The translations under genes were made by a program, and so were the position numbers. Shown here one piece after another: positions 11,566-22,175 of a DNA stretch of 64,000 bases. Every line of letters starts with the position of its first letter. Position 1 is the stretch's first letter. Source of the stretch: an uncultured Glaciecola sp. (GTDB lineage: Bacteria > Pseudomonadota > Gammaproteobacteria > Enterobacterales > Alteromonadaceae); the NCBI RefSeq assembly GCF_937770335.1, contig NZ_CALJHY010000001.1, positions 124,001-188,000 on the forward strand, read 5' to 3'. The notes beneath the pieces are model-generated. The model worked only from the letters and a program-made list of their open reading frames with translations, had not been told where the DNA came from and did not search any database.

Positions 11566-12600
11566 TTAACCTTCTGCTTTACTCGCTTTAAAATCGCGCG
11601 CTTTTGCTTGTGCTTCTAATACTTGGTCGTAAGCATGCAGTAACAGATCAGTAGAAACATCTTTTTGTGTACCATTTTGACTTAAGTAGCGACGCCAAAT
11701 CCGTCCACCGGCTTGTCCTTGAAACAAACCCAGAACATGCCTTGCAATATGCCAAACTTTTGAACCTTGCACTACTTGCCCTTTAATATAGGCTGTCATT
11801 TTTACCACAACCTCTTCTCTTGTTATCGCCGTTCCTGATTCGCCAAAAAATAGAGAGTCAACATCACTTAAAATGTAGGGATTTGAATAAATTTCGCGCC
11901 CCATCATTACGCCATCAACAAGTTGTAAATGCTGCTGCGCGTCTTCAAGTTTAGTTATCCCGCCATTAATGGAGATTTTCAATTGGGAGAACTCATCTTT
12001 TAAATCATAAACGCGCGGATAATTTAACGGCGGAATATCTCGGTTTTCTTTTGGACTCAATCCTTGCAACCAAGCTTTTCGAGCATGCACAATAAAATGC
12101 TCACATCCGCCATCTGCAACGAGAGACACGAAACGACTTAAACCCGCGTAGTCATCCATATCATCTATGCCGATACGACACTTAACTGTAACTGGGATAG
12201 AAATCGAAGATTGCATCGCCGCAACGCATTCAGCAACAGTTTCAGGCATTGCCATTAAACAGGCACCAAAACTGCCATTTTTGACCCGGTCTGAAGGACA
12301 ACCAACGTTGATATTCACCTCATTGTAACCACGCTGCTCTGCAATTGCGGCGCAATGCGCCATTGCTTGGGGGTCACTACCTCCAAGCTGCAGTACCAGT
12401 GGGTGCTCTTCTTTGTTGTAGCCCAAATAATCACCTTTTCCATGTATAATTGCCCCAGTGGTTACCATTTCTGTATACAACACAGTATGTTTTGATAGTA
12501 GGCGGAGGAAGAATCGACAATGGCGATCAGTCCAATCAAGCATGGGGGCAACTGAGAATCTATTTGAAACGTACTTTTTATTTTCTTTACCATTAATCAA
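11566..12600 (-). CDS. dusA: tRNA-dihydrouridine(20/20a) synthase DusA, 5' end replaced by an island
   Basis: DusA reduces U20/U20a in the tRNA D-loop using FMN. The about 345-residue protein has SVAPMLDWTDRHCRFF at the start, LQLGGSDP, NVGCPSDRVKNGSFGACLM with the catalytic Cys, the VKCRIGIDD motif, and INGGI for FMN phosphate. The codons before PMLDWT come from an integrated island: the original ATG start is found 9.6 kb away. The present frame has only TTG at 12600 (preceded by AGGTGG) or GTG at 12612 as starts, so initiation may be weaker than in an uninterrupted gene. I prefer TTG. Confidence 0.93.
   Translation of the reverse strand: MINGKENKKYVSNRFSVAPMLDWTDRHCRFFLRLLSKHTVLYTEMVTTGAIIHGKGDYLGYNKEEHPLVLQLGGSDPQAMAHCAAIAEQRGYNEVNINVGCPSDRVKNGSFGACLMAMPETVAECVAAMQSSISIPVTVKCRIGIDDMDDYAGLSRFVSLVADGGCEHFIVHARKAWLQGLSPKENRDIPPLNYPRVYDLKDEFSQLKISINGGITKLEDAQQHLQLVDGVMMGREIYSNPYILSDVDSLFFGESGTAITREEVVVKMTAYIKGQVVQGSKVWHIARHVLGLFQGQAGGRIWRRYLSQNGTQKDVSTDLLLHAYDQVLEAQAKARDFKASKAEG
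12528..12543. repeat. attL core (inside dusA)
   Basis: CAGTCCAATCAAGCAT, identical over 16 nt to 22130-22145. On the minus strand it encodes the MLDWT motif of DusA. Confidence 0.85.
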
Positions 12601-12683
12601 TGAGTTAACCACCTAAAACCACGATAACTCTAAATCGAAGTTTGTTTATTATGTGTTGTTTTGCTATATTATTTATTCTAAAT

Positions 12684-12744
12684 GATCCCAAATAACACCC
12701 CAAATTGATCCCAATTCGATCCCAAGCTGTTATTTATGATCCCA
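12684..12744 (+). repeat. Four GATCCCA repeats, candidate integrase arm sites (left)
   Basis: GATCCCA occurs at 12684, 12707, 12718 and 12738, spaced 23, 11 and 20 bp, between attL and the integrase gene. The same heptamer occurs just inside attR at 22079. Arm-type binding sites of tyrosine recombinases look like this; binding is inferred. Confidence 0.55.
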
Positions 12745-12778
12745 TTACTGACATAGCGTTTGATAGAAAGGATTATAC

Positions 12779-13207
12779 ATGGCATCTGTAATTATTGAAA
12801 AGAGAGTTGGTAAAACAGGCAACATTACCCACCGAGCAAAAGTCCAGCAAACGCACGGAGGAAAAGTAATCGACAGGCTATCTAAGACATTCAAAACAAA
12901 AACACTTGCCAAAACGTGGGCGAATAAAATTAAAAAAGAGATGGAAGATAAGTTTGAACGAGTCAAAGCTGGTATTTATCGTCCTGAGACCGAATTAGAT
13001 GAAATCACCGAAGGCGACTTAATACGAATGTATCTTGAACACCCTCGTTTATCTCAAGATTTAGGTAGAAGTAAGTTTTACGTTCTAAACTCCCTCTTAA
13101 ATTATGAAATATCATCTGTTCTAGCGAGTAATTTGAGAGCAAGTGATCTTGTTAAACATTCTGAAGAACGGTTCAACGAACCGACTAGCCCATCACCTCA
13201 AACATAA
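12779..13207 (+). pseudogene. Tyrosine-recombinase integrase, N-terminal fragment
   Basis: The 142 residues cover only the N-terminal arm-binding domain (MASVIIEKRVGKTGNITHRA, the three-strand fold of phage integrases) and the start of the core-binding helices. The catalytic domain with its Arg, His and Tyr residues is absent. The last residues (EERFNEPTSPSPQT) do not look like integrase. AAAGGA lies 7 nt before the ATG, so the fragment could still be translated. Its position next to attL fits the enzyme that placed this island in dusA. It may have ended by deletion of the 3' part. Confidence 0.8.
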
Positions 13208-13316
13208 CTGACCAAGCAAGCAAGACACACATCACAACTAAGAAGCAACCTCTTTACTCCTTGAAACTGTTTATGCACTGTAATGCTGTAATTGATATTT
13301 ATTAAAAGGATAATTT

Positions 13317-13618
13317 ATGTCATTCGACTCAGAAAGGCTTCCAGCATTAGCAAGAGAAGGTTATAAAAGAGGGCAAAATATGACTCATCTTACCTTGAGT
13401 GTGAATAGTGCAATTCAAAACGAATTGAGTGGAAAGGGACTTTTGGACAACTTTTTCAACTTATCCCTGATCCAGAAGTTCAATATGTAGTTCTTGAAGA
13501 ACTTGAGTGTAGAGATGATTTTCTGCGTGCAGGATTAATTATCGAAACGGATGAAGCGTGCGAACATACTTACATTGTGCCAAAAGAAGCCGCTGATTGT
13601 TTTATCGAACAACAATAA
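13317..13618 (+). pseudogene. Small island gene, apparently frameshifted
   Basis: An ATG with an excellent AAGGA site opens a 57-codon frame starting MSFDSERLPALAREGYKRG and ending at TAG 13490. In another frame the sequence continues smoothly from about 13440 as GQLFQLIPDPEVQYVVLEEL, then ECRDDFLRAGLIIETDEACE, to TAA at 13618. The total of 302 nt is one short of 101 codons, so a single-base deletion near the AAAGGG/CTTTT runs explains both halves. The family is not recognised; island hitchhiker. Confidence 0.5.
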
Positions 13619-13632
13619 CCTCATACGTAAAC

Positions 13633-20442: not shown

Positions 20443-20633
20443 ATGAACAATAATCCACTGATACACTACGAGTTTCTTTCTAATCAAGCTTTAGCTTTAC
20501 CAACAGAACTTCTTCAAGTCGGATTTTTCCGCAACAACGAAGAGCAGAACAGCGAAACCATAAAACACAATTTGTCTAAGCAGAGGTATGAGCTTGAAGA
20601 GCTTCACTGCGATACGTTCGTTGAATGAAGTGG

Positions 20634-21560
20634 TCAAGTTATTTTGGCCATGGGTTTATAGTATTTCCAATACCGATATTCCGATTCATTTGGCGTCAAC
20701 CCACCGTTATATGAATGCGGCCTAATTTCACTGTAATAACCAATTATATAATCATTGATACAGTGCTTTGCTTCACTAAAACTGCCATAGCCTGTTGTCG
20801 GTATCCATTCCGTTTTTAAGCTTCTAAAGAAGCGTTCCATGGGGCTGTTATCCCAACAATTACCGCGTCGACTCATGCTTTGTGTCAAACGATAACGCCA
20901 CACTACCTGCCTAAATTGGCGACTTGTGTAGTGACTTCCCTGATCGGAATGGAACATGACCTCTTTAGGTCTTCCTCGACTTTCATAAGCCATGCTCAAT
21001 GCCTGGCACGTTAAGTTACTATCGGGCGAATGACTCAATGCCTAGCCAATAGGTTTTCGTGCAAATAAATCCATAACAACCGCTAGATAAGCCCAGCGGT
21101 TGCCCGTCCAAATATACGTCACATCACCGCACCACGCTTGGTCTGGCTCTGTTACTGCAAACTGCCTATTCAATGTGTTAGGAATGGCTAGATGCTCTTG
21201 TGTCGCTTTTTTATAAGCATGTTTCGGTAACTGACAGCTGACTAAATCAAGCTTCTTCATGATGTTGCCAGCGCGATAACGAGACAAAGGATGACCATTG
21301 TTGGTTGCCATGATTGCCACTGTTCTTGCACCAGCTGAGCCATTGCTTTGGCGATGCACTTCTTTCACCTGACTGTGCAATTTAGCCGTTTCTGGTGTAA
21401 TGCGTTTATCACGCTTACGCCAGTATTTATAGGTGCTGCGGTGGACTCCAAATACCTCACACAACAACTTAATTGAATAACGGCGTGCATCGCTCTGACT
21501 CAGTTTCTCGATTACCGAGAGTTGTTCATGGAGTCCGACATCAACAGAGCGGTAGCCTTT
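20634..21560 (-). pseudogene. IS3-family transposase OrfB (DDE), nonsense mutation
   Basis: The catalytic integrase-core part of the transposase. The frame opens at the A6G slippery site as [20 protein letters not shown] and continues through the HTH-like [19 protein letters not shown] residues are visible: Asp in WCGDVTYIW, Asp in FHSDQGSHY, Glu in [14 protein letters not shown]. Between the first two, a TAG at 21042-21044 interrupts the frame exactly where related enzymes have Trp (GW-AMS), so TGG to TAG is the likely change. Both halves stay in one frame. The element is probably immobile on its own. Confidence 0.9.
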
Positions 21561-21832
21561 TTTAGAATCTCCTTTTCTAGTTCGAGACGTTCATTTCGCC
21601 TCTTTAACTCCCTAATTTCGAGCTGTTCTGGCGTCATTGGAGTTAGCTTTACACGCACGCCTTCGCGCTCTTGTTGAAGCTGCTTCACCCATTTACCAAT
21701 GGTTGAAAACCCGATTCCCATTGCTTTAGCTGCTTCGTCATGTGTGTAACCTTGATCGACAACTAATTGCGCTGTTTCTAATCTGAATTCAGGACTAAAC
21801 GTCCGTCTTGTTCTTTTACTCATCTTTGGCAC
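21512..21832 (-). CDS. IS3-family transposase OrfA
   Basis: A 106-residue protein with a helix-turn-helix ([20 protein letters not shown], then [13 protein letters not shown]) and a leucine-zipper-like coiled coil ([20 protein letters not shown]). OrfA binds the IS ends and, through -1 slippage at AAAAAAG (21563-21557), is extended into the OrfAB transposase. Here the downstream OrfB carries a stop codon, so only OrfA, which tends to repress transposition, is intact. The ATG lies 65 bp inside the right inverted repeat. Confidence 0.93.
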
Positions 21833-22066
21833 CTAATCTTGCTATGCTGATAGCATAACATCTCTTGATAGGTGGCCAAATTAACTATGCCACTTCATCT
21901 GGTGGAATTAGTGAAGTATATAGATAAGCGTACGAATGAAGCTAGAGATCTATGGAAAGAGTATCAGTATCGTTAATGCATTTGTCGAAATCGGTGCTAC
22001 TTCATCTTTTAGGTGGAGCTAGCGCCACTTTAATAAGCATAATCCTACATATCACTGCAAACAAAA

Positions 22067-22085
22067 CATCCCAAACACGATCCCA
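22067..22085 (+). repeat. GATCCCA repeat pair, candidate integrase arm sites (right)
   Basis: GATCCCA at 22079-22085 and the near copy CATCCCA at 22067-22073, 12 bp apart and 45 bp inside attR. They match the heptamer repeated four times at the left end. Confidence 0.45.
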
Positions 22086-22121
22086 TAAAAAACAAAATGC
22101 AATAAAAAACAACAACTTAAA

Positions 22122-22175
22122 TTAAAAACCAGTCCAATCAAGCATCGAGGCGACGGAGAGACGATGATTTAGCAT
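22122..22175 (-). pseudogene. Displaced 5' end of an earlier dusA
   Basis: On the minus strand an ATG at 22175 opens MLNHRLSVASMLDWT, then GF and a stop. Residues from RLSVASMLDWT align with RFSVAPMLDWT of the functional DusA, and identity at DNA level ends exactly at the 16-bp attR core. This is the start of the gene as it stood before the island entered. F-to-L and P-to-S differences indicate decay after it lost its function or a different donor. Confidence 0.85.
22130..22145. repeat. attR core
   Basis: Identical over 16 nt to 12528-12543. Beyond it the match to dusA weakens but continues at 11 of 17 positions, as expected for a diverged dusA 5' end. Confidence 0.85.

Follow-up and report, generated by a model that had tools for sequence, protein, structure and literature searches.

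How does a housekeeping gene come to lie in two places, its body opening only at a TTG or a GTG while a 5′ end with its own ATG stands 9.6 kb away? The question is raised by dusA of an uncultured Glaciecola sp., within a stretch of 64,000 nucleotides (contig NZ_CALJHY010000001.1, positions 124,001 to 188,000; hereafter the window). Islands specific for dusA, with dusA-associated integrases, have already been described (Farrugia et al. 2015, PMC4482086; this paper, PMC8409611 and PMC11127046 are cited here from excerpts of their text). Our answer, held at a probability of roughly 0.95, is that a dusA-specific element inserted by site-specific recombination at a core of ~16 bp, swapped the dusA start and then decayed.

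Island ends and the empty site

The features on which the argument turns are the following:
11566–12527, minus strand: chromosomal dusA body, retained (Pfam Dus, E 3.8e-85; 86–89% amino-acid identity to dusA of the genomes G003, G008 and G009)
12528–12557, no strand: dusA-side attachment repeat, with a 16-nt exact core at 12528–12543
22130–22159, no strand: far-side attachment repeat, partner of the repeat at 12528–12557
22122–22175, minus strand: displaced original dusA start, reading MLNHRLSVASMLDWTGF* (compare MLNHRFSVAP in G003 and LNHRLSVAP in G008)

The sequence CAGTCCAATCAAGCAT lies at 12528–12543 and again, on the same strand, at 22130–22145 (9602 bp start to start). The original prediction had built on this recurrence of 16 bp; we recovered it and could widen it to a 30-nt repeat with 87% identity, semiconserved flanking repeats of ~21 bp being a trait of the described islands (PMC4482086). 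Its length alone is near what chance gives (with up to three mismatches allowed, 20 of 100 shuffled versions of the window had at least two matches), as would be expected if the second copy were a fortuitous duplicate of a piece of dusA and not an attachment site. We count the repeat as real because of its position and not its length: both copies code for the identical dusA stretch. An empty site in a relative, a far end common to a Psychromonas element and an integrase remnant, all described below, also speak against a fortuitous duplicate, the probability of which we regard as negligible. In the 3.85-Mb genome as a whole, GTCCAATCNAGCAT is matched exactly at the two island ends and nowhere else; a further match, one mismatch away, lies on a different contig. 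As read from the sequence, the repeat pair forms the boundaries of a 9.6-kb island within dusA, with a G+C content of 37.1% compared to 40.7% for the remaining window.

Next to the far copy, the minus strand from 22175 to 22122 reads MLNHRLSVASMLDWT and has its own ATG at 22175, which confirms the earlier claim that an old dusA 5′ end is preserved there. Proline precedes MLDW in all 30 dusA loci listed, our own included; the displaced start has a serine at this position, which fits a sequence freed from selection.

The dusA search covered 60 genomes, our own included, of which 58 gave a match at E≤1e-80. In the congeneric G003, the genes on either side of the island adjoin in one row and no island is present. 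Its dusA begins MLNHRFSVAPMLDWTDRH at the bare junction, and both flanks of the window align to G003 (12558 at 16515, 22132 at 16543), overlapping by 29 bp at the core. Such a relative, with dusA starting at the junction and the intervening DNA absent, is what the original prediction had anticipated; the two outcomes that it had named as incompatible with an insertion, namely the same intervening genes without the repeat and an uninterrupted genome already holding both copies, were not seen. A single exact 14-bp core (strand counted) is found in each of the stretches from G003 and G008, the latter also without the island, and the island interior (12564–22131) has no blastn match at E≤1e-5 in any of 12 same-genus loci. 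Judged by translation, the flanking genes common to G003 and the window are what we take to be alcohol dehydrogenase-like and S-formylglutathione hydrolase-like; a small flanking open reading frame (ORF) gave no Pfam match in the window. The insertion lies in the 5′ end of dusA, again a trait of the described islands (PMC4482086).

A dusA start donated by the element

12544–12600, minus strand: island-donated dusA 5′ end, N-terminus as in dusA of Psychromonas sp. RZ22; alternative start GTG 12612

The present dusA frame comprises 348 codons without a stop and opens at GTG 12612 or TTG 12600. No ATG occurs in it upstream of ..SVAPMLDW, in agreement with the earlier statement that only TTG or GTG starts are available. 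By reading the sequence, AGGTGG was located at 12614–12609, 8 nt ahead of TTG 12600, which makes this TTG the likely start in preference to the GTG.

The origin of this 5′ end can be followed by comparison with Psychromonas sp. RZ22, whose dusA frame begins MVNSLINSKENKKHVSNRFSIAP, compared to MVNSLINGKENKKYVSNRFSVAP in the window. Between the core and the start of the integrase, the two are identical at 220 of 235 aligned bases. Over 240 bp of the dusA body, the window is identical to G003 at 187 of 239 aligned bases and to Psychromonas at 165 of 227. The closest partner thus changes at the core, from G003 on the dusA-body side to Psychromonas on the island side, which argues that the element brought the new dusA start; since this replacement start is common to the window and Psychromonas islands, it would travel with the element. 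The far end is also common to Psychromonas (82.6% over 270 columns, 21894–22151). Together with the repeats, the displaced ATG frame and the empty site of G003, this bears out the proposal that the island replaced the dusA start and moved the old one 9.6 kb away. A new dusA 5′ end brought by the island, with the old one at its outer boundary, is as described in PMC4482086. Judged from these comparisons, it is the element and not the chromosome that donated the present dusA start.

Is the donated start used? The ratio of nonsynonymous to synonymous substitution rates (dN/dS) of the dusA body, calculated pairwise, is 0.032 against G003, 0.059 against G008 and 0.056 against G009; among these three genomes themselves we obtained 0.033, 0.042 and 0.079, and two further comparisons were saturated. 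The dusA body is under purifying selection. One could suppose that the new start is idle or dusA dead, its frame having survived by chance, as there is no ATG start and no clear promoter. A stop-free frame of 348 codons with pairwise dN/dS far below 1 speaks against this, as does the conservation in Psychromonas of both the start and AGGTGG, and in Escherichia coli the expression of dusA is driven by an element of this class (PMC8409611). We therefore consider a dead gene very unlikely. We infer that dusA uses the donated start, on which it most likely depends by now, and the swap is probably permanent.

The course of events would then be as follows. The ~16-bp core of the element would have recombined site-specifically with its counterpart in the 5′ part of dusA. 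The insertion would have split dusA, the copy of the element supplying a start codon, a ribosome site and about 20 residues in frame, and the chromosomal start would have been pushed 9.6 kb off, to the far end of the island. Decay would have come afterwards, with loss of the integrase catalytic domain and, at an IS3-type element, of the N-terminal part of a PrtN-type factor.

The decayed element and its cargo

12779–13207, plus strand: integrase remnant, first ~142 residues (83% to Psychromonas, locus L049; 76% to Thalassotalea loyana, locus L050; homology stops at 13203)
21893–21976, plus strand: 3′ remnant of a PrtN/RdfN-type excision factor, last 27 residues (88.9% to residues 73–99 of 99 of the Psychromonas L100 protein, E 1.1e-12)
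20625–21898, minus strand: IS3-type element, terminal inverted repeats of 26 nt (85%); a stop interrupts its second transposase frame

The intact Psychromonas integrase has 376 residues with the Phage_integrase domain at 203–358 (L049, E 2.4e-25); as the remnant ends at ~142 of ~376, the catalytic domain is gone. The described islands carry a dusA-associated integrase of the tyrosine recombinase superfamily with the RHRH/Y residues (PMC4482086); the window island lacks such an integrase, only the first ~142 residues being left. Identity to the Psychromonas integrase gene is 58, 59 and 60 of 60 bases in the first three blocks and 47, 38, 50 and 50 of 60 in those that follow. In both loci found with the fragment (Psychromonas sp. 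RZ22 and Thalassotalea loyana) the integrase lies beside dusA. The lost integrase, we infer, catalysed the insertion.

The known excision factor RdfN is of PrtN type (PF11112), with its gene across attP from int (PMC8409611). Full PF11112 proteins of 100 and 99 residues stand at the same place in the islands of loci L098 and L100, compared to the last 27 of ~99 residues in the window, where the rest of the L100 protein has no match at E≤1. This remnant adjoins the IS3-type element, the sole full-length copy in the genome, with partial matches elsewhere. The ORF at 20443–20625 was considered as the missing 5′ part and rejected, as neither Pfam nor NCBIfam gave a match for it and the match of the Psychromonas protein is limited to 21893–21973. 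Elsewhere in the same genome, the integrase is not matched a second time at E≤1e-40, and nothing exceeds the cut-off for PF11112, for which there is only a weak hit with E 0.012. With the integrase catalytic domain and most of the excision factor lost, the island is probably immobile; excision as a circle, a trait of the described islands (PMC4482086), would not be expected of it. By descent, as traced in these remnants, it belongs to the dusA-specific islands, in a decayed and no longer intact form. This decay had gone unnoticed in the original prediction.

Several observations weigh against insertion and decay of a dusA-specific element. The bare junction is seen only in G003 among six same-genus loci with an aligned far flank (L037–L042); G008, G009 and G010 lack the island but carry 1.5–1.7 kb of other genes before dusA, and G011 carries ~3.9 kb of other genes at the same spot (G012 left out), so that the spot also varies for other reasons. 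Pfam and NCBIfam do not recognise the integrase fragment, which reaches at most 35.3% identity among the phage matches listed (30 of 50); its membership is assigned because of its close intact relatives. The dN/dS values are pairwise and not specific to the branch after insertion, with synonymous sites near saturation. Finally, a sigma-70-like scan of both strands gave 3 hits where shuffles gave 1.4 (sd 1.1), which establishes no promoter for the donated start.

The extra genes upstream of dusA were located at 2950–4600 in L038, 14700–16400 in L039 and 14200–16000 in L041; by eye they include a long hydrolase-like ORF in two loci and a GGDEF-like ORF in one. As these genes are not the same from one species of the genus to another, the position immediately before dusA is variable even without dusA islands. 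In G007, also of the same genus, an open integrase frame of its own lies next to dusA.

Between the remnants lie seven cargo genes:
13687–14637, minus strand: LPG_synthase_TM / flippase-like membrane protein (Pfam 3.9e-38; TIGR00374 79.8 bits, cut-off 43.2)
14656–15075, minus strand: DUF212, divergent PAP2 family (Pfam 3.2e-32)
15092–16048, minus strand: UbiA family, decaprenyl-phosphate phosphoribosyltransferase-like (NF008978 210.9 bits, cut-off 207)
16038–16454, plus strand: GtrA/DPMS transmembrane protein (Pfam 1.6e-10)
16459–17748, plus strand: DprE1-like FAD oxidase (NF053785 399.9 bits, below the cut-off of 500)
17754–18491, plus strand: SDR reductase, DprE2-like (PRK07102 (NF005489) 304.2 bits, cut-off 267; NF053786 193.4, below 250)
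18488–20041, plus strand: 517-residue protein, candidate GT-C, weakly glycosyltransferase-like (NF047440 E 6e-5, 22 bits, cut-off 200)

This set (13687–20041), with UbiA, PAP2-like, DprE1-like, DprE2-like, GtrA-like and possible GT-C proteins, resembles the mycobacterial route to lipid-linked D-arabinofuranose (PMC11127046). Such a pathway is only predicted here, because the DprE1 and DprE2 matches fall below curated cut-offs. A DprE1-like match at E≤1e-40 occurs in 3 of 59 other genomes, with 44–47% identity, and the 517-residue protein finds no match at E≤1e-20 in any of 393 other genomes of an order-wide sample. The UbiA-like protein scores 216.5 bits with NF008977, under the cut-off of 234, and its true start is probably internal to the frame. 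A tandem repeat with an 11-bp unit lies at 15953–16029, near the start of this frame.

An older dusA element might have acquired the cargo subsequently, through homologous recombination or together with the IS3-type element, so that the 9.6 kb would not be one insertion. This would account for blastn matches (E≤1e-3) to the islands of two close relatives being confined to 12513–13203, 21894–22151 and the att cores, for the absence from both of all seven cargo genes, and for the cargo being bordered by the IS3-type element on one side and by a sharp break on the opposite side. However, dusA islands are reported to differ widely in their cargo (PMC4482086), so that unique cargo is expected anyway, and the far-side repeats and core are in their normal position. 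We hold late arrival to be possible but on balance doubtful.

Elsewhere in the window, genes resembling a gas vesicle cluster were noticed by eye at 45133–57556 (GvpL/F-like, GvpN-like, AAA and ArsA-like ATPases, regulators).

Repeats before int and related dusA elements

12684–12744, plus strand: four GATCCCA repeats, possible arm-type integrase sites; the same four in L049
22067–22085, plus strand: two ATCCCA repeats 12 bp apart, one of them GATCCCA; possible far-end arm-type sites

Ten copies of GATCCCA occur in the window, five of them in 12684–12744 and the far-end zone. The motif is present at both ends in L098 and L099/L100 as well, and a pair with the same 12-bp spacing is found in L098 and L100, there 10 bp farther from the core. 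Most elements examined carry before int a repeat pair of their own (for example GATCCCA, GTACCCCA, GTACACCA or TGAACCCA) with a spacing of about 11–13 bp; in the three elements for which both ends were compared, the pair recurs near the far end, and the dusA core is constant. GATCCCA as a universal motif of dusA integrases was rejected: four phage relatives lack it before int and show, by eye, different short repeats there.

The 120 bp preceding int were then scored for direct repeats with 10–14 bp spacing (p≤0.05), with a zone inside int as control and no CCC-like letters required. The test was positive in 14 of 21 dusA elements, which are not independent as some are close relatives, and in 1 of 21 control zones; L064, L078 and L081, where the match stops short of the int start, were left out, and L066, misplaced, was counted as a miss. 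In L072 the best-scoring repeat differs from the GTACCCCATA pair. The repeats, standing between att core and integrase, were noted upstream of int in loci L049 and L059–L080. Over the 14 positives, likeness of repeats correlates with identity of the integrase N-terminus (r 0.61, p 0.0002); the correlation vanishes (r −0.02) in the 77 of 91 pairs under 60% identity, and, being confined to close relatives, it does not establish an address code.

The repeats before int are perhaps arm-type integrase sites. We tentatively propose, at somewhat short of even odds, that the integrases of dusA elements carry an address code that changes quickly, with element-specific repeat pairs and a constant dusA core. 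The integrase N-terminal domain would then read the arm-type repeats, so that elements sharing one site would not cross-mobilise each other, and the window island, with both ends and GATCCCA kept, would be movable only by an integrase of GATCCCA type with its excision factor. The terms arm and arm-type are absent from the main texts of PMC4482086 (searched for arm) and PMC8409611, and literature searches judged by title gave nothing on arm sites of dusA integrases among the matches listed. With the help of the repeat pairs before int, it may be possible to classify dusA elements at little cost according to the specificity of their integrases.

A survey of 196 genomes of the family, our own included, gave 26 integrase matches at E≤1e-40 in 23 genomes; the dusA start is visible in 23 of the 26 loci, ours among them (the misses are L082, L083 and L084). 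The far end was examined in eight elements: the window, L098, L099/L100 and L101–L105. A far core, each time with a displaced dusA start, was found in six (window, L098, L099/L100, L102, L104, L105); L101 and L103 have none within the fetched stretch, which in L103 ends with the contig. Displaced starts with an ATG and an open frame to the core lie near 17447 in L105, 12559 in L104 and 1446 in L102, and these could still be read as short peptides.

The closest islands, in Psychromonas sp. RZ22 (L099/L100, 23.2 kb between cores) and in G062 (L098, 18.4 kb), have in common with the window the integrase subfamily, GATCCCA near both ends and the displaced dusA start. In contrast to the window, their integrase and PrtN-type frames are open, and their cargo has no blastn match to it.

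Compared to the islands of Farrugia et al., which average 42.6 kb and range from 4.8 to 185 kb, the window island is below average in size and within the range; its integrase is truncated, and its cargo set is not named in the excerpts of PMC4482086. Unlike elements of the IMEVchUSA3 type (PMC8409611), it has no SGI1-like transfer genes that we could recognise among the window ORFs. As in Vibrio dusA elements, a PrtN-type gene stands across attP from int, here as its 3′ end only. As in IMEVchUSA3 and other Vibrio dusA elements, for which a new promoter was also demonstrated (PMC8409611), dusA receives a new N-terminus. The known picture of dusA islands is unchanged by the window island, in which an empty site and an independent donor confirm from sequence that a housekeeping gene can acquire a new start from a mobile element.

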